Of a stretch of DNA of 24,123 nucleotides, positions 1 through 12,282 are shown piece by piece. This DNA is from a virus. The stretch spans positions 1 to 24,123 of the IMG/VR virus record IMGVR_UViG_3300009430_000108, one strand, 5' to 3'. Numbering within the stretch: position 1 is the first letter of the stretch; each line of letters starts with the position of its first letter. A program made the position numbers and the translations under genes. Under the pieces are notes generated by a model, which ran no database searches, was not told where the DNA came from, and was given only the letters and a program-made list of their open reading frames with translations.

Positions 1-3000
1 TTCGTCAGATACAGCGGATTCAGAGGACTCATTTTGGGTAAGATAGCATTGAGTTCAATACCATTCTCATTAGCAAATTCACGCTTCAAAGAAACAGTGA
101 TATACCGTTTAGCTTCCTCCTCATTCAAATTCTCTTCCTCTATCAGTTGAGCAGCTTCCATTTTCTGTATACCCTGCGCATATTCGAAGAACGAATCAAT
201 CAGATCCGCTTTATCAAGGATAGTATTCAGATCCGTCTCGTTGATAAAGTCGACCATCAAGTTCTCTTTCGCCCTATAGCCAATGCTTGCACGAATCACC
301 CTACGCGCTTCCTCAATCAACGCAGCCTTGTCTTTTCTCGTTTTGTTGTATTCAAAGATTAGTTCAAGAATATAATCAAGGTTTATCTCCTGAGATTTCA
401 ACAGATCGATCTCGAAGACAACATCATCCCAATCGATGGTCGACTCCTCCCGTTCCTTACCCTGTCTCTGCACTCTCAGCCAGTCGCGTATATCGTTGTA
501 AGTAGAACGATAATCCTGGTTGGCCCGATCAGTCAGCACCTCCACCTCTTGCATCGAAGCTATCTGTTCATCCGTCAGGAAATGAGCCTCTTTGAAAGCC
601 TCAACCGCCGCACTATCGTTCCGATCGATCTTTTGAAACGCTTTCAGATAAGTAAACTCATCATAGTTCTGCAACACATTCTCTATACGCAAGTACTCAC
701 CAAAGAGTTTAGAAAAAGCCTTCTTATCTTTCTCCGTAACAATGGCATCCGGATCAGGGAACTTCTCATTGAGTTCTTTCACCACCTCGATATAGCCCCT
801 ATGAGCTACTCCGGTAACAATATCTTTAAAGCCCTCCAAATACTCCTTATAACTCTTTTCGAGTACAAAATTCTTCGTATTGTCATTGCCAAACGTCCTG
901 ATAGCCTCAATCGTAGCACCTTCCAGATCTCTGAAAGTAACGATGTTACCAAAAGTTTTCGTCGTATCATAAATACGGTTTGTGCGTGAATAAGCCTGTA
1001 TCAGACCATGAAAACGCAGGTTCTTGTCGACAAATAGCGTATTGAGTGTAGGAGCATCAAAGCCCGTCAGAAACATACCCACCACAATAAGCAGATCCAC
1101 CTCCTTGTTCTTCACCCGTTTGGCCAGATCACGGTAGTAGTTCTGAAACTCATTACCATCGACACTAAAGCTCGTTCGGAACATAGCGTTATAGTCGGCA
1201 ATCGCCTTTGAAAGAAACTCTTTCGAACTAATATCCATAGCCGAAAGTTCGAGCGACTCATCCGCAATATCCCCTGCAACATGCTGTTCCTCATTAGCAG
1301 CGAAGGAGAAGATAGTCGCAATCTTCAGCGGTTTATCGCTCCCAGCCTGCAAGGCGTTCAGTTCCTCGTAATAACATTTAGCAGCATCCACGCTCGACAC
1401 AGCAAACATCGCATTAAAACCGCTGCTGCCCCCTCCTTGATTTCTATGAGTTTTTATTTTATAATTCTGTAAGATGTATTGAGAGATCTCTTTAATACGA
1501 GCCGGATGGAGGAGAGCCGTGTTATTTTCAGCAGCACTCAACTTCAGTTCATCTTGTTCCGATTCAATCCCTTTAAACATCGGACGCACATTATTGTAAT
1601 CCACCTTAAACTTCAGTACCTTCTCATCCCTAATAGCATCCGTAATGATGTACTCATGTAGTTCACGACCAAACACACTCTGCGTTGTTTCTACACCTGA
1701 CGCATTTTCAGGGAAGATCGGTGTACCGGTAAAGCCAAACTGATAGAACCTTTTAAACTTTTTCTTCAGATTCTTCTGCGCCTCACCAAACTGAGATCGG
1801 TGAGCCTCATCAAAGATGAACACAACCTGTTTCTTATAGATCGCCAGATCGTTCTCACTCTTCATGAGATTGTTCAGTTTTTGGATCGTTGTGACAATAA
1901 TCTTATTATCATCCTTCTCGATATTTCTTTTCAAGCCCGCCGTACTATTCGATCCGTTCACACTATCGGGAGAGAAACGCTGATACTCTTTCATCGTCTG
2001 ATAGTCGAGATCCTTACGATCGACCACAAAGAACACCTTATCGATAAAGTCGAGTTCCGTAGCCAACCGTGCAGTCTTAAAACTAGTCAGAGTCTTACCC
2101 GATCCGGTGGTATGCCAAATGTATCCCCCAGCATCAGGTTTCGACCAGATCTTCGATTCAAACGAACTTTTGATCTTCCACAAGATCCTTTCCGTTGCAG
2201 CAATCTGATAAGGTCTCATCACAAGCAACGTATTATTTGTGTCGAACACCGAATAAGTGAGCAACACATTCAGCAAAGTCTGTTTCTGGAAGAAAGTAGC
2301 CGTGAAGTCCTTCAGATCTCTGATCAGTGAATTATCAGCCTTCGCCCAGTTCATGGTAAAGTCGAAGCTGTTCTTATTCCGTTCAACGGTATTCGCAAAA
2401 TAGCGACTATCCGTGCCGTTGGAGATCACAAAAATCTGTAGATATTTATAGAGAGAGTTGTCACAGTTGAAGCTCTCTTTCGAATAGCGATGTACCTGAT
2501 AGAATGCTTCACGGATAGCAACACCCCGTTTTTTGAGTTCCACTTGCACCAAAGGTAACCCGTTGACCAATATGGTAACATCGTACCGATTCGCATGCGT
2601 TCCCGTCTGAGCGAACTGCGAGATCACCTGCACTTTGTTGCGGGAAATATGTTTCTTATCCACTAAGTAGATATTCTGAATATGTCCATCATCAAAAACA
2701 AAGTCATAGATATAATCATCATGAATTTTCCTTGTTTTCTCAACCAGATTATCACCCGGTTTATCCAAGTACTCGTCCACATAACGGCTCCATTCACTAT
2801 CGGTAAACGTCACATCATTCAGATCCTGAATCAGAACACGTGCATTCGCAAGCATTTGTCCCGCAGAAGAAATGTTCGTTGGATTCTCATAACCTTGGCA
2901 AACCAGATCGTGGATAAACTCACGTTCCAAAGCAGCCTCCGTCTGATAACCAATAAGAGCATCATGTGCCAAAGGGCATTTGGTGTATTTGTCGAGAACA

Positions 3001-3041
3001 ATATAGTTGTTCGTTTCCGCAATAGTGTTATACTGTGTCAT
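1..3041 (-). CDS. hsdR: Type I restriction enzyme subunit R (HsdR), 3' end cut by window
   Basis: This is the ATP-dependent translocase and endonuclease subunit of a type I restriction-modification system; with HsdM and HsdS it pumps DNA and cuts unmethylated DNA away from the recognition site. I translated it from the ATG at 3041; the frame stays open for 1013 codons to the window edge, so the C-terminus is missing. The N-terminal PD-(D/E)XK nuclease shows D154, E168 and K170 ([10 protein letters not shown] then QVELKK). This D-14-E-2-K spacing equals that known for EcoR124I HsdR (D151, E165, K167). The SF2 motor shows Walker A TTGSGKT (311-317), DEAH (411-414) and motif III FTGTP (437-441). 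EcoR124I HsdR has about 1038 residues, so probably little is lost. It is the last visible gene of the operon, 61 bases after the albA2 gene. Nothing suggests inactivation in the visible part. Confidence 0.95.
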
Positions 3042-3102
3042 TCTGTTTTTAGATATAATTGAGACAATCAGAAGGTGATCTGAAATAATATGTTACACCT
3101 TT

Positions 3103-4278
3103 TTAGTTCGCCATAGTCATTCGTGGAATCTTCACAATAAACTGTTCGCCTTCCACATCATTAATCAATTCAATATTCGGTTGTTCGGCAATTGCCCGTC
3201 TGATACCCGACCCCAAGCCACTAAAAGGCATTGTTTTCGAAGCAAAAGCAACCAGTTGGTTATTTCTGATAACCGGGTTCCCATATTTGATATCCTCAAC
3301 AGTCAAGCTATTGGGTAATTTCCCCGGACTTATTATTTCAACTCGATCGTCGAAGAGGAGGATACGGATCGGTGAATTTTTAAAATAATCCCTGTGAACA
3401 ATAGCGTTTTGCACCAGTTCGATTAGAGCAATTTCCGAGATTTCGAGTTTGCCGATAGAGTTGAAACCTTGTCCAGATTGTAAGTATTGCAAATTAGATT
3501 TCAAAAAGTTCATAGACTTCTCAAACAGTTGAGGGATGGTACCATTCAAATCAGCAGGCTTATTTCTATATTGCGTTCCATTGATATCGTTGCCTACAAA
3601 AGAGACCACTTTGATTGTAAATGCAGGTTTAAAACATTGAGGATCATTACCAAAAAACAGCAACCCGGCTAAAGACAATCTACCATCCGGCAATATTCTC
3701 TTCGCCTTCAATGCCTCCTGGTAAGATAAACCCTTCTCCTCGAAAGTCTGTCCAAACTCCTTTTTAAAATACTCAGAGAAAGCCACTCTATTGATATCAT
3801 CGATAGACGTACCATAAACCCCCATTTCATCAGCAAGCAGGTTTCCACTGTGTTGGAATAATCGCATGATTTCAGCATTATCAGTCACCAAACGTTTGTT
3901 TGAACCCTGCTTAACATATATTTCTCCTTTAGCCGTTTTATAAGGTTTGTTGATGCCCTCTTGAACATGAACAACGAGGATGTTTTTCGTCGCACCCTCC
4001 GCATCCACTCTGATCACCTCAGTAGAGACGTATACGATCGGTTTAATATTATCCGCAATTTGAGAAATCACTCTATCGTACTCCTCAATCTGTTCGGCGG
4101 ACAAACCGATCAATTCGCCGGTAACATCTTTCACTCCGAACAAGATCACCCCACCCATCGAATTCGACATTGCAACGATTTCCTGAGCAACACCATCTTT
4201 ATGAGGAAAATCCTCTTTAAATTGTACTTTACTCGTTTCTCCGGTACTAACAATATCTAATAAATCAACGGTTTTCAT
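3103..4278 (-). CDS. AlbA_2 (Schlafen-type) domain protein with C-terminal GHKL-ATPase-like domain
   Basis: Putative nucleic-acid-binding protein of the COG2865 type. The AlbA_2 domain covers roughly the first third: the ETSKVQFKEDF segment, then EIVAMSNSMGGVILFGVKD, then a stretch ending near KPYKTAKGEIYVKQGSNK. The C-terminal third resembles an HATPase_c_4 fold: ELVQNAIVHRDY (N-box-like), ISPGKLPNSL and GLGSGIRRA. I prefer the ATG at 4278, giving 391 residues, because it forms an ATGA overlap with the trlF stop and has GGAGGT nine bases upstream; an in-frame ATG at 4296 would add six residues. It is co-transcribed with trlF and followed by hsdR. Genes of this family are common beside type I systems, but their role is unsettled, as regulator, effector or nucleic-acid sensor. 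The second acid of the Schlafen nuclease motif (ExxxxE) is Gln here, so nuclease activity is doubtful. Confidence 0.85.
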   Translation of the reverse strand: MKTVDLLDIVSTGETSKVQFKEDFPHKDGVAQEIVAMSNSMGGVILFGVKDVTGELIGLSAEQIEEYDRVISQIADNIKPIVYVSTEVIRVDAEGATKNILVVHVQEGINKPYKTAKGEIYVKQGSNKRLVTDNAEIMRLFQHSGNLLADEMGVYGTSIDDINRVAFSEYFKKEFGQTFEEKGLSYQEALKAKRILPDGRLSLAGLLFFGNDPQCFKPAFTIKVVSFVGNDINGTQYRNKPADLNGTIPQLFEKSMNFLKSNLQYLQSGQGFNSIGKLEISEIALIELVQNAIVHRDYFKNSPIRILLFDDRVEIISPGKLPNSLTVEDIKYGNPVIRNNQLVAFASKTMPFSGLGSGIRRAIAEQPNIELINDVEGEQFIVKIPRMTMAN

Positions 4279-6866
4279 AAGTTTGCCACCTCCCATATTT
4301 TATAAATATTACGTCTGAAATCAAACGCCTCTTTTCCGCCCTCCATAATATTAATAATTTTTTGTTGAATAGATTGACAGTCGATACTTCCATTATCCAA
4401 TTTGATCTCCTTTCCATCCATATATTCGCAAGCAACTAAAACTTCACTATCGCCCAATACCGGTATATTGGCATTATGCGTTGCAAAGATAAATTGCATT
4501 TCCCCCTTCAGTTTTTTTATTTCCCGAATAACATCCTTGTAGATTGTTTGATTATCCAAGTCATCTTCAGGTTGATCAATGATCAATATATCATTTTCTT
4601 TCTGAGTTAAAAGAAAAAGAATCAGAGCCGAAGCCCTCTGCCCCAAAGAATGATCTTTCAGAGGTTTACCTTCAAATTTGATAGTCAACCGATTGTCGAC
4701 CTTAAAAGTCAGTAAGTCGACAAGATGTTCCTTAAATCTCCTCTTAAAATCAACCAACTGGCTCTCGTTGAGTATCTCTGTCAATCGTGAGAACCGATCC
4801 TTCCAGATATCCATAAAGTCAGCATAAACATGAACGATATTCTCATAAGCCGTCGATCGAATACCGGATCCTCGACAAAGATCTTGCAATCTAGCCAGGA
4901 ACTTATCCTTCCGATCCTTATACCCGATCTCGATAGATAATTTGGTACTACCGCTATTGATCTTCTCTACCTCCAGTTGTAAGGTAGTAAATTCCTCATG
5001 CCATAAAGAGTCCAATTTCACACAAGCCTCCGACAAAGAGTGTAGCAGTTCCACCCTTTTACTTTCCGACTTTTCTATTTCAATCAGTTTCAATTTAGAA
5101 GTCTCCAGCTCCCGATTGATTTTAATGAAATCATCCGGATTCAATTCCGGAATATTTATTTCTCGTTTAATTTGAGCAAACTCCTCCTTCAGTGTCTCCC
5201 TTTTATCCTTCAGTTGCGTGAGTATCTTCACAAATGCCTCCTTGGTAAGCAGCAAATTTCTCACGATGGCATCCAATTTATCCATTTCAAGTTTTAAGTT
5301 TCCCTGTTCCCGAAGGATCTGCTCATTCACCTCCTGATTAGTTGGCGAAAGAGTGATTAGTTTCAACAAAGAAGCATTATTTTGAATCAGCGAAGAGACC
5401 TCACCCATATAACTATCGAAACCCGAGATATAATCATTTAGTCTATTGATATCCGAATCAAAGTTAGTCTGTTTCTGTAATTTGTCGGACACCCCTTTCT
5501 CAGCGAACAACTTCAGCCGATGTTCAGCATTATTTTTGAGAGCTTCCGTCTCATTTTTCAGCAAAGAGAGATTCTCATACTCCTTCAGTGAAAAGACGAT
5601 TCCATTGATCATCCGCTTTTGATCGTCGATTTTCTTGTTCACCACATCCAATCTGGCACCGACCAGTTTATTCACCAAATCGCTTTCAAAATCAGCATCT
5701 TTATTCGATAAATCTTTTTGTCCAAAATAGATCGGACGTTGAAGAATGGCATCCAAGGTAATACCTGGTTGGAGAACTCCCTCTTTATAGATATCCTCCT
5801 TCTGACCATAAATTTTCTCTACTCGATACAAAGCCCCTTGGCGATTGATCAGTTCAACAATGACCTTACCGCCACTCTTCAATATATGTTGAATTAAGTC
5901 CTTTTTATACCCCGCATCAATAGCCTGAGATCCAAGTTGAATATTCAGTGCATCCCGTAGAATCTCTAAAATAGAAGATTTTCCACTACCACGAATACCG
6001 ATCAAATTATTCAATTCAGGAGAAAAAAAGACCGATTTACCATTCAACAATCCCCCTTGAAAAGAGATTGATTTGATCCAGGAATTACGTATCAGAGTTT
6101 TTTCCTTCCGGACACGGTTTTTATGATCGAGCAAAGCATATTGTAAAGCTTCAAAATTGAAATCCCCGATTTTGATATAACTCACCCTTCCGTTTCCGAT
6201 ACCATCCAGACCTTGTTGAGCATTATCCGAACCTTCCACACAAGCGACCTCTCTACCGGCTAATTCGCATAACGTTTTATAATTATCCCAATTACCGCTT
6301 TTTTGTATAGCCAGCACTTTCTGAAAAGCTTCTTGTTGAACAAAAGCTTCGCGGGTACGTCCCTTTAAGACCGCATTCAATCCGTTAGTTGTATCCACAT
6401 GAGCCAGAACGATAAAATAGTTATATCCTATTTTATCCAACATCTCCACGGTTGTAGCCAAATCGAAAGAAGAGTTAGGGTAAGGAGGAATATCAAAGTT
6501 CGGAATACCATAAAAAGCAGTACGTAGGAAATCATTAATCGAATCACTCTCCCCTTTATACCAAGCCTCATCAAAGACGATTAGGATATGAAGACCATTG
6601 TTTAAAGAGAACTCCACTCCCGGGAATAAACCAATCCCTTGATTATAGGCATCCCTTTTCAGTGCAACGAATTCACCTTTATTAAATTTATTATGATTGG
6701 TTATTACTCCAACACGAATGTCTTTTTCCACAAGTTTATCAACATACGCTCTTGTAAAATCATTTTCATCGCTACTATACGGAAACTCCTTATCAGCCTT
6801 CGTGTGCAAATGAAAATCAGCACGAAGCCAAGTCGTGCCATTCTGGAATAATGTACTTCTATCCAT
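4275..6866 (-). CDS. TrlF-family protein: PHP phosphoesterase fused to SMC-like ATPase
   Basis: An 863-residue two-part protein. The N-terminal PHP (polymerase and histidinol phosphatase) domain has likely metal-ligand motifs at DFHLHT (17-22), TNHN (56-59), GVEF (E85), AHVD (H156) and EGSD (211-214), so a metal-dependent phosphoesterase is plausible. Then comes an ABC/SMC-type ATPase split by a long coiled coil: Walker A GIRGSGKS (290-297), a Lys/Glu/Leu-rich helical stretch of about 300 residues, a signature-like SLGQRAS near 735, Walker B LIIDQPEDDLD near 762-771, and an H-loop ATHN near 796. This layout matches proteins annotated as TrlF-family AAA-like ATPases, often found in defence islands. 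Known SMC-like relatives sense or process DNA; the substrate here is unknown. It begins 156 bases after prrC, perhaps from its own promoter, and its stop overlaps the albA2 start. Confidence 0.85.
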   Translation of the reverse strand: MDRSTLFQNGTTWLRADFHLHTKADKEFPYSSDENDFTRAYVDKLVEKDIRVGVITNHNKFNKGEFVALKRDAYNQGIGLFPGVEFSLNNGLHILIVFDEAWYKGESDSINDFLRTAFYGIPNFDIPPYPNSSFDLATTVEMLDKIGYNYFIVLAHVDTTNGLNAVLKGRTREAFVQQEAFQKVLAIQKSGNWDNYKTLCELAGREVACVEGSDNAQQGLDGIGNGRVSYIKIGDFNFEALQYALLDHKNRVRKEKTLIRNSWIKSISFQGGLLNGKSVFFSPELNNLIGIRGSGKSSILEILRDALNIQLGSQAIDAGYKKDLIQHILKSGGKVIVELINRQGALYRVEKIYGQKEDIYKEGVLQPGITLDAILQRPIYFGQKDLSNKDADFESDLVNKLVGARLDVVNKKIDDQKRMINGIVFSLKEYENLSLLKNETEALKNNAEHRLKLFAEKGVSDKLQKQTNFDSDINRLNDYISGFDSYMGEVSSLIQNNASLLKLITLSPTNQEVNEQILREQGNLKLEMDKLDAIVRNLLLTKEAFVKILTQLKDKRETLKEEFAQIKREINIPELNPDDFIKINRELETSKLKLIEIEKSESKRVELLHSLSEACVKLDSLWHEEFTTLQLEVEKINSGSTKLSIEIGYKDRKDKFLARLQDLCRGSGIRSTAYENIVHVYADFMDIWKDRFSRLTEILNESQLVDFKRRFKEHLVDLLTFKVDNRLTIKFEGKPLKDHSLGQRASALILFLLTQKENDILIIDQPEDDLDNQTIYKDVIREIKKLKGEMQFIFATHNANIPVLGDSEVLVACEYMDGKEIKLDNGSIDCQSIQQKIINIMEGGKEAFDFRRNIYKIWEVANL

Positions 6867-6926
6867 AATCTTACTAATCTACTTTTCGGTTATCTCACTG
6901 AAATTCCCTCCCAGAAGGAGGATTTA

Positions 6927-6934
6927 CAAAAATA
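6927..6934 (-). promoter_or_regulatory. Possible internal promoter -7 box upstream of trlF-like gene
   Basis: On the minus strand this reads TATTTTTG, an exact match to the Bacteroides -7 consensus TAnnTTTG, about 60 bases before the trlF ATG. The -33 element is poor: the nearest upstream TTG copies lie 12 and 23 bases away. The 156-base gap is the longest inside the operon, which makes a separate start of transcription plausible. Weak evidence. Confidence 0.35.
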
Positions 6935-7022
6935 TAAATTAAAATTCAATTTCAGCGCAATTTCCTCGTGTTTAGTCAACAACTTTCCAGTATCTGCCAC
7001 AGTATAAGTAAGAAGTCGGCGA

Positions 7023-8123
7023 TTACTTTCCTTTCCAATAATTATTATCGACAAGATGGTTGAGTAGAAATTTCACTATTTTTTTCTCTGGCTCAGTAGG
7101 CTCTGGTATTGCTTCATAAGACAACGTAGAATGACTTGTAAACTGAATTATCCTATTGTAATAAGTTAGTTTATCATCTGGAAGCAGATCCGACCACTGG
7201 GGATACCCTAAGAAATTTGCTGTTTTTTCATATAGATTCCTTAAAAGCATAAAATGATACTTTTCAATACTATTCGTTTCAATAGCTTCTTCAATTACTT
7301 GTTTAATATGTAGGTGGTAAGAAAAACTTTTATTTGAATCACCTTTCTTTTCTTGGATATTAAAAGTACCATCATCCTCCTTATTCAGCATATAACAAAC
7401 TTTATTCTGGAGCTCATTAAATAAAACATTATAAAATAAAGGATTGTGTGTTGTAATAATGAATTTCAGCTTAGAGTCACATGATTTTATTAATTCCGCA
7501 ATATTTACTGCTAACTCAATTAAATGATTTTCATCTAATGAACTTACTGGATCATCAATAAAAACATACTCTAAATTATCGAACTGATGTGTTCCGCGTT
7601 CATTAGGTTCATCAATATTTAAGACTCCAACCACTTCTTTTAATAGACTGTAAAACACACACCAAATTAAGCAGCTTTCTTCACCCTTCGATATCTTTAT
7701 ATTTTCAATGCTTTCATCATCACCACCTTTAATAGAAAAGGTTATTTCATTGAATTGTTCATTAAGGTTTGGCGTTAGTTTATTATTTGTGTAATTTTGA
7801 AAATACGTAACAATGTTTTCAAACTCACCTTGATCTTCAAGAACCCACTTTGTAAAACTGTTTGGCTGTATTTTCAGAACTCGATCAGAGTCTGTATCTA
7901 AGTCATTATCCCAATAAAACAGGTCTTCAGTAAAAGCGTTATAATAAATTATTTTTCCTGATGATTCTTGCTGCTCATCAGAATCATCCTCTTTCGGTGT
8001 TACCAGTTTTTTAAATTCACGAGATAATCTTGTCTTACCTATGCCATTAAACGCATAAATTAATTGCACTTTTTTATTCGTGTTTTTTAATGTTTGTGCA
8101 ATTTCTGTTAATGTCTGTCCCAT
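7023..8123 (-). CDS. prrC: PrrC-like anticodon nuclease (latent tRNA endoribonuclease guarded by a type I R-M system)
   Basis: In E. coli, PrrC is held silent by its type IC restriction enzyme EcoprrI. When the phage T4 Stp peptide disturbs that complex, PrrC cuts tRNA-Lys in the anticodon loop and shuts down translation. This 366-residue protein has the same plan and close to the same length (396 in E. coli). The ABC-type NTPase part (about 1-250) has a Walker A variant YAFNGIGKT (23-31, with Ala in place of the first Gly), a signature-like ISKGEES (144-150), Walker B VFIDDPVSSLD (187-197) and an H-loop TTHN. The C-terminal part holds R295, E299 and H331, spaced 4 and 32, identical to the E. 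coli triad Arg320-Glu324-His356. It starts 14 bases after hsdS, so it is co-expressed with its likely guard. The tRNA target cannot be read from sequence. Confidence 0.9.
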   Translation of the reverse strand: MGQTLTEIAQTLKNTNKKVQLIYAFNGIGKTRLSREFKKLVTPKEDDSDEQQESSGKIIYYNAFTEDLFYWDNDLDTDSDRVLKIQPNSFTKWVLEDQGEFENIVTYFQNYTNNKLTPNLNEQFNEITFSIKGGDDESIENIKISKGEESCLIWCVFYSLLKEVVGVLNIDEPNERGTHQFDNLEYVFIDDPVSSLDENHLIELAVNIAELIKSCDSKLKFIITTHNPLFYNVLFNELQNKVCYMLNKEDDGTFNIQEKKGDSNKSFSYHLHIKQVIEEAIETNSIEKYHFMLLRNLYEKTANFLGYPQWSDLLPDDKLTYYNRIIQFTSHSTLSYEAIPEPTEPEKKIVKFLLNHLVDNNYWKGK

Positions 8124-8137
8124 AATATAGATTTTAA

Positions 8138-9298
8138 TTATTCCTTGGGAAATGTGAGTAACATATCCCGATAATATTCATATTGCTTTTTACGTAATTC
8201 AATTTCTTTAGGAAGACCTTCACTGATAGAAGTAGTGAGGGTATCGAATTTATCAAGTATTGAAACTATGCGTTCCTGCTCGGCAAGAGGAGGAACAGGA
8301 ATAAGGATCTTTTCAAAAGCAGTCTTTGATAAACGAGGGACACTTGCACGACGAACTTGACCAACTATTTTGGTTTGCTGAGTTAACAGATAATAATACA
8401 AAAATTTACTTATAAGATTTTTGAAAGGTACGAAATAGTAAACATCATCAGCAGCCCAAAAATCAACATCACTATACCCAATTTCACCTGCAGAACCCGC
8501 GCTTATAATAAAAACACTATTAGCTTGCACATTACTTTCGTGATAATAACCAAGAGGAATCATGCTATTTTGATAAACTGCATATTTACCCAATTTCTCT
8601 AATTCACTTTTAACAAGTCTTTTACCCCGCTGAATTTTAGTAACTTCTCCTAACACCTTCCACTCCACTTCGTTCTCTTCAAAGCTAAGCAACTGGTCAC
8701 GATAGTAGTTATACTGCTTTTTACGAGCTGTAAGCTCTGCTGTAAGCTCTGCTGTAAGCTCTGTGAACGTGTCTAGAATACGGACAATCTCTTTTTGAAC
8801 GGAGAGTGACTTTTCTGGGTTATCTGGACACGGAATAGGAACAAGCAGCCTTTTGACAATCTGCGCATTAATATTTGTTTGTGAACCAGCACCAAGTGAT
8901 TTAATATATTCATATTGGCTCAATAAAAAATGATACACGTAACGATAATTTGCAATATTTTCATTAAGCTGAATATTTGCGCATGCTTGATTAGTACATA
9001 ATGGAATTTTGTTAATTCCAACTTTACCAACTGTCGCTCCATACATTGCAATGATTATGCAATTAACAGGAATCATTTTAGCACTAGAGTTTTTCAGCCC
9101 CACTTCCGTAATATTAACACCCGTACTCCAAATATCGCCGCTTCCAACTTCTTGGGTTCGAAGCCAAGGAATATTGCCATTATAATATGCTGAAACATTG
9201 GTTTTAGGAGTACCTCCAGAAGATATTTTTACGGCTAATTCTTCCAGCGTCTTCCACTCAACCTTTGCACCATGCAATAATTTATCTAAATAACTCAT
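8138..9298 (-). CDS. hsdS: Type I restriction enzyme specificity subunit (HsdS)
   Basis: DNA-recognition subunit of the type I enzyme; it binds two HsdM for methylation and additional HsdR for cleavage. The 386 residues form the usual two halves: target-recognition domain 1 (about 1-160), a central conserved helix, target-recognition domain 2 (about 207-345) and a C-terminal helix. The two helices carry near-identical segments RKKQYNYYRDQLLSF (192-206) and RKKQYEYYRDMLLTF near the C-terminus, the pseudo-twofold repeat expected of HsdS. The central helix is preceded by TELTAELTAELTA (179-191), matching the variable TAEL repeat of EcoR124. The ATG at 9298 has AAGGAG eight bases upstream and overlaps the ancestral hsdM stop as ATGA. 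Base composition is more AT-rich than hsdM and hsdR. Only one hsdS is visible and it looks full length. Confidence 0.95.
   Translation of the reverse strand: MSYLDKLLHGAKVEWKTLEELAVKISSGGTPKTNVSAYYNGNIPWLRTQEVGSGDIWSTGVNITEVGLKNSSAKMIPVNCIIIAMYGATVGKVGINKIPLCTNQACANIQLNENIANYRYVYHFLLSQYEYIKSLGAGSQTNINAQIVKRLLVPIPCPDNPEKSLSVQKEIVRILDTFTELTAELTAELTARKKQYNYYRDQLLSFEENEVEWKVLGEVTKIQRGKRLVKSELEKLGKYAVYQNSMIPLGYYHESNVQANSVFIISAGSAGEIGYSDVDFWAADDVYYFVPFKNLISKFLYYYLLTQQTKIVGQVRRASVPRLSKTAFEKILIPVPPLAEQERIVSILDKFDTLTTSISEGLPKEIELRKKQYEYYRDMLLTFPKE
8727..8763 (-). repeat. 12-bp tandem repeat, three copies, in the hsdS central linker
   Basis: The plus strand reads GCTGTAAGCTCT three times without mismatch, with one further matching base. 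On the coding strand each unit encodes Glu-Leu-Thr-Ala, giving ELTA x3. In EcoR124 the equivalent repeat (TAEL) occurs two or three times, and this changes the spacer of the recognition site from 6 to 7 bases. Being in-frame and exact, it can gain or lose units by slippage without breaking the gene. Confidence 0.9.
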
Positions 9299-9339
9299 GC
9301 CTCAATCTCCTTTAAAATAGCATCAATATCAGCACGTAG

Positions 9340-10845
9340 TTAGTCGATCTTAGTCACCGTTTCCGAAATCTCAGTGTTCAGCTTTGTAATATCAATCACC
9401 TCACGATTATCCTTTGCTTCCACATAAGAACTAACAGAGAGATTATAATCATTCTCAGCAATTAACTTATTATCGACAGATTTAGCAACATACTGCACAT
9501 CCTCCTTGCGGTCGAAGATTGTCATTATCTTCTCAATGTGTTCGTCTTCAAGGATATTGTTATTCGTTACCTTCTTGAAAAAGCCTTCACCACTTGCATC
9601 AATAAACTGAGTTTTTTTATTTTCCTTCTTGTTTTTGGCAAGAACCAGAATATTAACCGCTATAGAAGTTCCATAGAACAAGTTTGGAGCTAAAGAAATC
9701 ACCGTCTCAACAAAGTTATTGTCCACCAAGTATTTTCTAATCTTCTGTTCAGCACCACCCCGATAAAAGATACCAGGGAAGCAAACAATAGCAGCTCTTC
9801 CGCTACTCGACAGATAGTTTAATGCATGTAGTACGAAGGCAAAATCAGCTTTCGATTTAGGAGCAAGCACACCAGCAGGAGCAAAACGATCATCGTTGAT
9901 CAGAGTAGGATCATCGGAACCGATCCAGTTGACTGAATAAGGAGGGTTAGAAACAATGGCATCGAAAGGTTTCTCATCACCAAAATGCGGATCCAAAAGC
10001 GTATTACCAAGCGCAATATTGAACTTGTCGTAGTTGACATTATGCAAAAACATATTCATACGAGCAAGGTTATAGGTGGTGTGGTTTATCTCTTGACCAA
10101 AGAATCCCTCTTCAATGATGTGATTATCAAAATGCTTTTTAGCCTGCAAAAGTAAGGAACCAGAACCGGCCGCAGGGTCATAAATCTTATTAACTGTGAT
10201 CTGCTTATGCATAGCAAGCTGTGCAATAAGTTTAGAGACGTGCTGCGGAGTGAAGAACTCACCGCCCGACTTTCCCGCATTTGCTGCATAATTAGAGATC
10301 AAGAATTCATAAGCATCGCCAAACAGATCTATTTGGTTATCTTCGAAGTTTCCAAAATTCAACTCCTCCACCCCTTTCAATATGGCAGCCAAACGAGTGT
10401 TCTTATTTTCAACCGTATTTCCCAATCGGGTACTCGTTGTATCAAAGTCAGCAAACAACCCTTTGATATCATCTTCAGATGGATAGCCATTTGCCGAGCC
10501 TTCGATGGAGTCGAATATCGCTTTTAACTCTGTATTTAAGTTAGGATTAGTATTAGCGTTTTTCGCCATGTTCACAAAAAGCTGACTAGGATAGATAAAA
10601 TACCCTTTTGTCCTAATAACATCATCCTTGATCTCCGGAGTGATCATCCCGTCCGGTAAACCGGCATAGTTAATACTAGCATCGCCCGCTTCAATGTAAT
10701 TCGTAAAGTTCTCACTAATAAAACGATAAAAAAGCGTTCCCAGAACAAATTGTTTAAAATCCCAGCCATCTACTGACCCACGCACCTCATTGGCTATCTT
10801 CCAAATCTTATTTTGCAATTCATCTCGTTGATTTATACTTGTCAT
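9340..10845 (-). CDS. hsdM: Type I restriction enzyme DNA methyltransferase subunit (HsdM), C-terminus probably clipped
   Basis: Adenine-N6 DNA methyltransferase subunit that modifies the host copy of the recognition site and forms the core of the complex with HsdS. The 501 residues begin with the helical N-terminal domain typical of type IC HsdM. The SAM-binding motif I is DPAAGSGS (223-230) and the catalytic motif IV is NPPY (300-303). It is the first gene of the operon, with a likely promoter about 45 bases upstream. The annotated stop is TAA at 9342-9340, but the same frame stays open for 14 further codons (LRADIDAILKEIEA) up to a TGA at 9297-9295 that overlaps the hsdS ATG. That arrangement strongly suggests the TAA is a recent nonsense change, for example from a Gln codon, removing part of a C-terminal helix. 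The core enzyme should be intact. Confidence 0.95.
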
Positions 10846-11298: not shown

Positions 11299-12282
11299 TC
11301 ATGACGTCTCTAATTGATTTATAATTGTTATTATTTGATCAAATAAGGATCGACTTTCTCTAGCTTTCGTGATGTGTTCTCCATTTAAACCATCAGCAGA
11401 AGTACACTTAAATACAGGTTTTCTTGCCCTTAATGAATAAGGTATTAAACTATGCAGATTAGGTATTTCACCTAAATTATAGTTATCTTTTATTTCAACT
11501 TGATCTAAAGGAGTCAAGGGTGCGACTAAATTGTTCATCACAGCAAGATCTATTCTACTTGCAAAAATCTGCCAGCCCCTAGTCATTCTTGCTGCATTAT
11601 TTCTAACATTATGCTGTTGGATAACATATCCTAAATATTTGGGTTTACCAGATGGTAAACTAAACTCGTCACCTTTATATGCTGTTCTAATTTGACTCCA
11701 TTCTTCTGCCCAATGCACTAGTTTATTCCCTAAATTTTGCGTTCCTTGAATTGAAAATAAATCGGCGGCTAATGGAGTTATAAAATAATCAGTTCCACCT
11801 AATATAGCCCTATTCAAGGAACCTAAATTAGGTCCTAGATCAATCATAACCACATCAATATTCAACTCCTCAGCACACCATTGCAAATATCTATAGATAG
11901 CAACCTGTGAACGTAAATCCGGAACGCTACCGCCCTTAGCACTATTCCAAGTATCACCTAGTCTATCTTCAAATGTACTGAGTCTTAAATCTCCAGGCGT
12001 TAAATATAAATTTTCTTGCAACGCTATTGGTTCACGTTTAAGAAAATCTCCAATACCTTGATAAATTGGATCAATTACTTGATAAATACTGTTTCCTTGA
12101 AGACTCCAGCTATGAGTGATTTGCTCATCAGTCAAACAATAAGCCGTTAAATTACATTGGCTATCACAATCTACTAGCAAAGTTTTTTTACCATTTTCTG
12201 CTAGTATATGACCAATATGATACATATAGGTAGTCTTACCTACTCCACCTTTATTATTGAAAATACTTAAAAATATAGCCAT
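11299..12282 (-). CDS. ParA/MinD-superfamily ATPase without a ParB neighbour
   Basis: A 327-residue deviant-Walker ATPase of the ParA type, which dimerises on ATP, binds DNA non-specifically and usually moves plasmids, chromosome origins or protein cargo. The Walker A' motif is NKGGVGKTT (10-18) with the signature lysine at 11; Walker A' is followed by VDCDSQCNLT (37-46) and the switch II MIDLGPNLGSLN (146-157). Its own promoter lies just upstream and the next gene downstream on this strand is the tiny unit at 11123, so it appears monocistronic. No ParB-like gene lies beside it in this window, which is unusual for a partition locus. It may act alone, serve a mobile element, or pair with a distant partner. 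AT content is higher than that of hsdM and hsdR. Confidence 0.85.
   Translation of the reverse strand: MAIFLSIFNNKGGVGKTTYMYHIGHILAENGKKTLLVDCDSQCNLTAYCLTDEQITHSWSLQGNSIYQVIDPIYQGIGDFLKREPIALQENLYLTPGDLRLSTFEDRLGDTWNSAKGGSVPDLRSQVAIYRYLQWCAEELNIDVVMIDLGPNLGSLNRAILGGTDYFITPLAADLFSIQGTQNLGNKLVHWAEEWSQIRTAYKGDEFSLPSGKPKYLGYVIQQHNVRNNAARMTRGWQIFASRIDLAVMNNLVAPLTPLDQVEIKDNYNLGEIPNLHSLIPYSLRARKPVFKCTSADGLNGEHITKARESRSLFDQIITIINQLETS

Follow-up and report, generated by a model that had tools for sequence, protein, structure and literature searches.

The 24,123-base IMG/VR virus record analysed here over its whole length (the window) carries on its minus strand, from position 10,845 down to 3, an operon of the six genes hsdM, hsdS, prrC, trlF, trlG and hsdR. 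A type I restriction-modification (R-M) system with the embedded anticodon-nuclease homologue PrrC is combined therein with a second module, the gene pair trlF-trlG (trlFG), which codes for a PHP domain protein with an SMC/Rad50-like ATPase and for a protein with a Schlafen-like AlbA_2 and a HATPase domain. As judged from related operons, trlFG fills the prrC-hsdR junction of an hsdM-hsdS-prrC-hsdR operon. Homology, gene order, the behaviour of the pair as a module, its repeated capture by several kinds of R-M system and its independent re-assembly with PrrC mark trlFG as what is very probably an R-M-embedded accessory module. The function favoured here, at a probability of roughly 0.55, is that of a backup growth-arrest layer, layered with PrrC.

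Genetic organization of the operon

The methyltransferase subunit gene hsdM (positions 9340-10845; minus strand, as for all genes and gaps of the operon) codes for 501 amino acids (TIGR00497, 653 bits; N6_Mtase) and hsdS (8138-9298) for a specificity subunit of 386 amino acids with two Methylase_S stretches (PADLOC Specificity_I, 410 bits). The 3' end of hsdR (3-3041; TIGR00348, 653 bits; EcoR124_C) is cut by the window edge with no stop codon inside, and 1013 amino acids of the restriction/translocase subunit are seen; complete HsdR proteins of close relatives comprise about 1032-1064 amino acids. With hsdM, hsdS and the cut hsdR together in one operon, the system belongs to the type I R-M systems. 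PrrC (7023-8123; 366 amino acids) was assigned by its embedding in the hsd operon and by a match of 477 bits to the PADLOC PrrC model over residues 3-363. It contains RNLYE-x31-H (R-x3-E-x31-H), which we take to be the R...E...H nuclease motif of PrrC; the exact spacing is shared by 12 of 33 PrrC frames, including that of the window.

TrlF (4275-6866; 863 amino acids) is composed of a PHP domain (residues ~12-256) and an SMC/Rad50-like ATPase with coiled coil, and belongs to family NF045780 (473 bits against a curated cut-off of 350). TrlG (3103-4278; 391 amino acids from the conserved start) harbours the Pfam domains SLFN_AlbA_2 and HATPase_c_4. The longest trlG open reading frame (ORF) starts at 4296; the methionine at its seventh codon (4278), kept in 78 of 79 TrlG proteins, yields an ATGA overlap between the trlF stop and the trlG start (4275-4278), which is real if trlG starts at this conserved residue. 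With that proviso for the overlap, ORFs and family models bear out what had been read from the letters without database searches (the sequence-only reading): six genes on one strand in the order hsdM-hsdS-prrC-trlF-albA2-hsdR, albA2 being trlG, with trlF and albA2 joined by ATGA.

The same reading had regarded the two genes as inserted between prrC and hsdR. The gaps flanking the extra module measure 156 nucleotides (prrC-trlF, 6867-7022) and 61 nucleotides (trlG-hsdR, 3042-3102). In 11 related operons lacking trlFG, prrC and hsdR are spaced by -101 to +12 nucleotides (first possible start codons), which agrees with the insertion and identifies the 156-nucleotide gap as one edge of the module. 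Within this gap lie a short inverted repeat (cctcc-n5-ggagg) and a stretch rich in AT, the latter a possible promoter of trlFG's own.

Conservation of trlF-trlG as a two-gene unit

An alignment scan for TrlF at one genome per species (84,980 species) revealed 348 relatives, the best 80 of which by likeness to the window were examined, a non-random selection of loci related to one another. Together with the window, trlG directly follows trlF in 76 of these 81 loci, and in four of the other five the contig ends no more than 5 bases from trlF. In 85 of 88 trlF-trlG pairs the genes overlap or lie at most 30 nucleotides apart, and the distances among TrlF proteins are correlated with those among TrlG proteins (Mantel r 0.845, a value reached in none of 2000 permutations). 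The supposition that trlF and albA2 form one unit is upheld by their adjacency and close spacing.

A separate draw of 393 genomes from Bacteroidales, the order of the Paludibacter locus L008, overlaps with the 80 loci (L008, L015 and L021 in both). TrlF-family genes were detected in 25 of these genomes at 28 places, 26 of which exceed the family cut-off, and a trlG-like gene is located downstream at 13 of the 28. L128 and L042 are near-identical. Among plasmids, tblastn with TrlF gave hits in 1102 records, with a coverage of at least 80% of the protein in 229; shorter matches may represent other SMC-like ATPases.

Association with restriction-modification operons

In a strict count, with neighbour representatives identified by PADLOC and Pfam, the pair lies inside modification-based defence operons at 33 of the 80 genome loci, i.e. 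in type III (17), type I (7), bacteriophage exclusion (BREX; 5) and helicase/IIG/Hma operons (4). Automatic labels had linked 37 of 80; four type III rows (L016, L039, L045, L050) were set aside, their sole label being short or weak. Six loci are ambiguous in the strict count, including L013, with the pair 545 nucleotides before the mod gene, and L065. RES3 labels of 109-117 amino acids in L016, L039, L045 and L049 may be remnants. With type III outnumbering type I, and BREX and helicase/IIG operons in addition, the notion that trlFG belongs to hsd operons was rejected.

Long flanks, of at least 2.5 kb upstream and 3.5 kb downstream, are available for 40 loci; of these, 21 are R-M-linked and two ambiguous. 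With the same labels, none of 14 random stretches from same-order genomes (177 genes, 217 kb) and none of five loci of gajA (Gabija), a small control with one locus of only 3.3 kb, were linked to R-M. The Fisher p for linked loci versus the random set is 3e-4 (7e-4 minus two random stretches below 1.5 kb) and serves only as a guide, because the 80 loci were chosen by likeness to the window and are related. The hidden Markov models behind the R-M labels were built from neighbours of the same loci; they detected hsd at 42 of 42 PrrC loci and gave no hit in the 217 kb of random sequence. The gajA control locus L154 contains a 518-amino-acid AlbA_2 gene with a trlG label and no R-M label. The sequence-only reading had asked for the pair as a conserved element inside hsd operons; what stands is the link to R-M (21/40 vs 0/14 and 0/5), whereas specificity for hsd or prrC does not.

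In the Bacteroidales draw, TrlF touches R-M genes at at least 11 of the 28 places, a lower bound because PADLOC or Pfam names were assigned to a selection of the neighbours only. A trlG-like gene is present in type I L118 (distant), in L008, L123, L126 and L136 with type III or related methyltransferases, and in type IIG L128 and L135; it is absent from type IIG L117 and L127, type II L124 and type I L137.

The position within the operons is recurrent. The pair sits between mod and res in 12 type III loci, four of which hold one more ORF (a second AlbA_2 gene in L008, a smaller ORF in L024, L027 and L043). Six type I operons, five from genome loci and one from the V. cidicii plasmid L006, are ordered S-trlF-trlG-R, and the BREX type I locus L083 reads pglX-trlF-trlG-pglZ. 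Deviating positions are before mod-res in L013, after hsdS in L084 and L137, on either side of hsdS in L118, where the two genes are separated, and before helicase-IIG in L128; many loci are truncated at one side, which precludes a judgement on the position of the pair.

Several neighbourhoods deserve mention in their own right. L118 (2333-13456), ordered hsdM, a distant TrlF (1023 amino acids), hsdS, a 546-amino-acid AlbA_2 protein with the Schlafen E-x4-E motif and hsdR, is a type I operon with another, distantly related pairing of TrlF and AlbA_2. In L124 (991-7533), a type II R-M system (D12-class methyltransferase, AlwI-like restriction endonuclease) has a distant TrlF directly behind it, with no trlG. 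An additional AlbA_2 protein containing Glu-x4-Glu is encoded within the trlFG operon of L008 (7421-9076), L072 (5310-6551), L057 (11632-12891) and L076 (8366-10003), in type III, BREX and Hma-like contexts.

PrrC operons and origin of the composite

PrrC surveys of the order (12 of 393 genomes) and the class (13 of 395; three shared) yielded 22 distinct loci, which together with 20 virus contigs amount to 42. All 42 of these loci, in Bacteroidia genomes and virus contigs, carry hsd labels, and trlFG was found at none of them (0/42); a general link of the pair to prrC was not borne out. The complete order hsdM-hsdS-prrC-hsdR, ascribed by the sequence-only reading to the E. coli prr locus, is present at 15 and hsdR-hsdS-prrC-hsdM at 13 of the 42 loci, the rest being partial, fused or otherwise ordered. 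The PrrC relatives from virus contigs (L172-L191) are all located inside hsd operons on IMG/VR contigs (20/20), an operon type often found on or beside proviruses. PrrC region L143 contains an unrelated 477-amino-acid AlbA_2 gene about 8 kb away, with no adjoining trlF.

The two parts of the window's operon have different nearest relatives. Identities to proteins of hsdM-hsdS-prrC-hsdR operons lacking trlFG reach 84% for HsdM, 79% for HsdR and 67.5% for PrrC. The closest TrlF and TrlG are those of L008 (74% and 77%; 100 in the approximate likelihood ratio test SH-aLRT for the TrlF sister), a type III operon. The TrlF tree was computed by a quick method (LG+G4, midpoint root), with several rows of odd composition. 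In L184 (7250-9832), an operon close to the window's, an 860-amino-acid AAA-type gene (AAA_13/RloC-like by eye) lies between hsdS and prrC; with this other insert before prrC, the operon family is seen to take up modules.

The same six components in Enterobacteriaceae

A search of plasmids for TrlG retrieved 51 records. The IncC plasmid pNDM-KN (L296, 2411-13181) carries the order hsdR-trlF-trlG-hsdS-prrC-hsdM, with PrrC (471 bits; 33% identical to the window's) annotated only as 'AAA family ATPase'. Of 50 plasmid records with matches, 24 contain this operon to at least 80%. Among 5426 complete E. coli genomes, trlFG DNA was detected in 38 and prrC DNA in 37. A chromosomal E. coli copy (L309, 9035-19805) has the same order as pNDM-KN and is carried as cargo by a Tn7-like element that lies between yhiN and yhiM; its junctions trlG/hsdS, hsdS/prrC and prrC/hsdM are all ATGA, and HsdR, TrlG, TrlF, PrrC and HsdM share 31-42% identity with the window's proteins. 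A small helix-turn-helix gene precedes the operon in both L309 and L296. In the Aeromonas caviae copy L310 (12763-15552), hsdS is interrupted by a 483-amino-acid ORF.

By its path on the quick tree, TrlF of L309 is nearest to that of a Pseudomonas plasmid pair (L297) and far from the window's. Because the trlFG lineage, the order of the prr operon and the junction occupied by the pair all differ, the six-part set was most likely assembled at least twice independently. This separate re-assembly provides the best indication that the combination is of use and did not arise by accident on a single contig. The idea of a composite unique to the window is wrong, with the same six components in L296 and L309, and given their occurrence in Enterobacteriaceae it is no peculiarity of Bacteroidales, the order in which the sequence-only reading had proposed to search.

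Protein models and active-site residues

In the AlphaFold model of TrlF (predicted local distance difference test, pLDDT, 83.9), residues 12-256 resemble the PHP nuclease EndoQ (Z ~18, 219-222 residues aligned, root-mean-square deviation 3.1-3.3) and the remainder resembles the heads of Rad50, SMC and RecF (Z ~18-21); the Foldseek matches further include the RNase AM PHP domain. Structural Z scores were computed only for chains ranked by Foldseek. Walker A and B motifs are invariant in 35 TrlF proteins, as are seven of nine PHP metal ligands, with an eighth nearly so, in what we assume to be the ligand set. Ppl is a single-gene phage defence protein composed of PHP and SMC-like parts. TrlF matches the Ppl model NF042955 partially, with 167 bits far below the NCBIfam cut-off of 1000, and an identity with Ppl was rejected.

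The N-terminal domain in the model of TrlG (pLDDT 88.7) has the Schlafen core fold and resembles SLFN5, 11, 13 and 14 as well as the SAMD9 tRNase domain (Z ~10 over 111-142 residues), and the C-terminal domain resembles SpoIIAB and other GHKL ATPases (Z ~10). The whole chain resembles DIP2311 (3lmm; Z 22.4) at a root-mean-square deviation of 14.6, hence domain by domain only. Given this Schlafen plus GHKL fold, the names transcription factor and RecG helicase in some records were rejected for the AlbA_2 protein. In a profile alignment, SLFN14 E206, E211 and D249 correspond to TrlG E20, Q25 and D57 (longest-ORF numbering). The window's TrlG thus reads E-Q-D in place of the Schlafen E-E-D catalytic triad; E20 is invariant (79/79). 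SLFN14 E211 is named in PDB titles (E211A), and we take it, along with E206 and D249, to be catalytic.

Growth restriction by TrlG and proposed function

The temperature restriction locus of Photorhabdus is described in the available text of PMC7554251 as trlR-trlF-trlG, its TrlG having the same AlbA_2 plus HATPase_c_4 layout as the window's. According to this text, mutants growing at 36 °C bear lesions in trlG and none in trlF, and deletion of the whole trl operon likewise frees growth at 36 °C. All 13 mutated positions examined (11 substitution and two stop sites) match the stated residue in TrlG of P. bodei (L077). Among 79 TrlG proteins, the mutated sites corresponding to window P328 and N345 are invariant, and G364, A42 and S22 are kept in 78, 76 and 73; others, among them R80 (window K85) and A193 (window L202), are variable. 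Sixteen distinct trlG lesions were counted in the available text, and all would fall in trlG by chance with a probability of 6e-9, assuming equal targets per base, independent hits and L077 gene lengths. Because all relieving lesions published there affect trlG and none trlF, the activity that stops growth resides in TrlG, and inactivation of TrlF apparently does not lift the restriction.

We propose that a mobile hsdM-hsdS-prrC-hsdR operon with PrrC as guard has received trlF-trlG as a second, separately evolving module between prrC and hsdR. TrlF, with a PHP phosphoesterase-type domain on a Rad50/SMC-like ATPase, may read DNA ends or stalled R-M complexes and could restrain or license TrlG. 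TrlG, combining a Schlafen-fold domain with a GHKL ATPase, would act as the growth-arrest effector, released when restriction fails or when the balance of modification and restriction is disturbed, and would provide a second abortive layer beside PrrC. These exact roles, sensor or processor for TrlF and effector for TrlG, are tentative assignments. By anatomy, trlFG is a second guard, an ATPase-nuclease sensor and an ATP-binding effector placed between modification and restriction; its trigger and effect on phages are what we infer. An extension to all contexts, which we hold to be unlikely, would make trlFG a general plug-in alarm taken up many times by modification-based systems that differ in mechanism (type I, type III, BREX and helicase/IIG), with TrlF as a one-chain Rad50-plus-nuclease sensor reading a common signal on DNA (e.g., unfinished or inhibited restriction) and TrlG, its site rebuilt from Glu to Gln, arresting the cell by binding or by a new chemistry in place of the usual Schlafen cleavage of RNA.

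Several observations weigh against a backup growth-arrest layer. To our knowledge, temperature restriction is the only phenotype of trlFG, and no phage assay of the pair was found in the literature surveyed. The outcome named beforehand as refuting an R-M link, random positions of the pair with no such association, was not encountered, though 17 of the 40 long-flank loci show no labelled R-M neighbour; together with the solitary Photorhabdus locus these indicate that trlFG does not need R-M. TrlF lacks TrlG at 15 of the 28 places of the Bacteroidales draw, several being distant TrlF or cut contigs, and on plasmids of E. coli/Shigella (two IncF, one IncI-gamma/K1) and Listeria (L294, L295, L005, L003); TrlF is therefore more than a partner of TrlG. 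Position 25 of TrlG is Gln in 73 of 79 proteins and Glu in six (L038, L101, L123, L130, L135, L136), three of which belong to the deepest branches when the TrlF tree is rooted at its midpoint. A simple tRNase role of TrlG is doubtful because the Schlafen catalytic Glu is replaced in these 73 sequences; the growth-restricting TrlG of Photorhabdus reads E-Q-N.

The alternative that survives best, though we consider it appreciably less probable, is that TrlFG represents an autonomous defence or stress module hitch-hiking in mobile, already regulated R-M operons, neither sensing nor serving R-M. The unlinked long-flank loci agree with this, as do the Photorhabdus and Pseudomonas plasmid (L297) pairs, beside which no R-M gene is listed, the PLSDB gene tables being incomplete. 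The acceptance of the pair by type I, III, BREX and helicase/IIG operons points the same way and makes one specific protein contact less likely. However, embedded copies mostly sit between the genes for modification and restriction, where the ORFs often overlap, and gajA, likewise a defence gene, had no R-M label at any of the five loci of that small control; both speak against a mere passenger.

TrlF could also be an auxiliary DNA nuclease, a one-chain analogue of Mre11-Rad50, degrading DNA cut or stalled by HsdR, Res or PglZ under regulation by TrlG and without suicide. The predicted likeness to EndoQ, Rad50/SMC/RecF and the RNase AM PHP domain, the conserved PHP metal ligands and the mostly absent Schlafen Glu of TrlG are in line with such a nuclease. 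This explanation appears improbable in view of the suppressors of growth restriction, which in the published account available hit trlG and spared the larger trlF. Least probable by far is a maintenance or addiction (toxin-antitoxin-like) module of the mobile operon: TrlG restricts growth in Photorhabdus with no trlF loss selected, and plasmids and a Tn7-like element carry the pair, but the mutant deleted for the whole trl operon grew according to the same source, so that post-segregational killing is not evident, and the R-M association also exists on chromosomes.

If trlFG does act as a backup growth-arrest layer, several unrelated restriction systems would have one small module in common as their second line of defence, and whatever triggers it would have to signal the failure of restriction in all of them. 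The likely first purpose of the Photorhabdus temperature-restriction genes would then be that of a defence module, the misfiring of which at 36 °C stops growth. The composite in the E. coli Tn7-like element makes the system approachable with ordinary laboratory strains and coliphages carrying known anti-restriction proteins. Given the Gln in the Schlafen site, the RNase activity proposed for 'backup effectors' becomes testable and, for TrlG, doubtful.

Phage-related part of the window

The remainder of the window represents a phage late region with PHROGs matches to endolysin and baseplate hub. A ParA-like gene (11299-12282) separates the phage lysis region from the defence operon. The phage half gave no megablast match among 50,697 phage records, and R-M labels are absent from the 102 loci related to its genes, apart from the helicase label HEL5 in two. 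A single-protein scan of viral contigs for TrlF gave no match, and the alignment scan of viral contigs yielded one distant relative (L088). TrlG (1e-20) and PrrC (1e-30) found no match in the phage collection.

Comparison with known systems

Type I R-M with PrrC, trlF-trlG itself, Schlafen-kinase-fold proteins in BREX and type I R-M as Tn7-like cargo are already known. Among the literature matches listed, with subscription papers and supplements outside their scope, only PMC7554251 joins trlF to an R-M gene: in the available text, the Yersinia plasmid pYR3 has two small hsdM genes between trlR and trlF. The occurrence of trlFG across type I, III, BREX and helicase/IIG systems, its combination with PrrC and the Glu to Gln exchange were not found among the matches listed, which is no proof of their being unpublished.

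As in the E. coli prr locus and its relatives, PrrC is embedded in a type I system. Without trlFG the window has the order hsdM-hsdS-prrC-hsdR, complete at 15 of the 42 other PrrC loci; it differs by the trlF-trlG addition between prrC and hsdR, absent from all 42 PrrC loci. PrrC as guard of type I R-M is established in the accessible parts of PMC3710099 and PMC12707154. Layered R-M operons in which PrrC or RloC is joined by RhuM or DOC are already proposed in the former; they share the idea of restriction, tRNase and another toxin, and the window has another extra module.

The Photorhabdus trl locus, as far as the text of PMC7554251 extends, contains the same two proteins, trlF being directly followed by trlG, adjacent and overlapping (L077). 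It stands alone and is known for its effect on growth at 36 °C, whereas the pair of the window is embedded in an R-M operon and lacks the small helix-turn-helix gene trlR before trlF, where prrC and the 156-nucleotide gap are found instead.

Proteins with Schlafen, minimal histidine kinase and winged helix-turn-helix parts are proposed as BREX backup effectors in the main text of PMC12839542. The description fits TrlG and follows the same embedding logic; that main text, in which the term PHP is absent, covers BREX/BR and not type I or III R-M. Because of the Glu to Gln exchange, its label 'Schlafen RNase' is not to be carried over to TrlG untried. The yhiN-yhiM interval is the published site of Tn6230 in the available text of PMC10121019, and type I R-M as cargo of Tn7-like elements is known from that of PMC12671221. 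At this site, L309 carries all six components of the window's operon as cargo, but with another gene order and another TrlF lineage.

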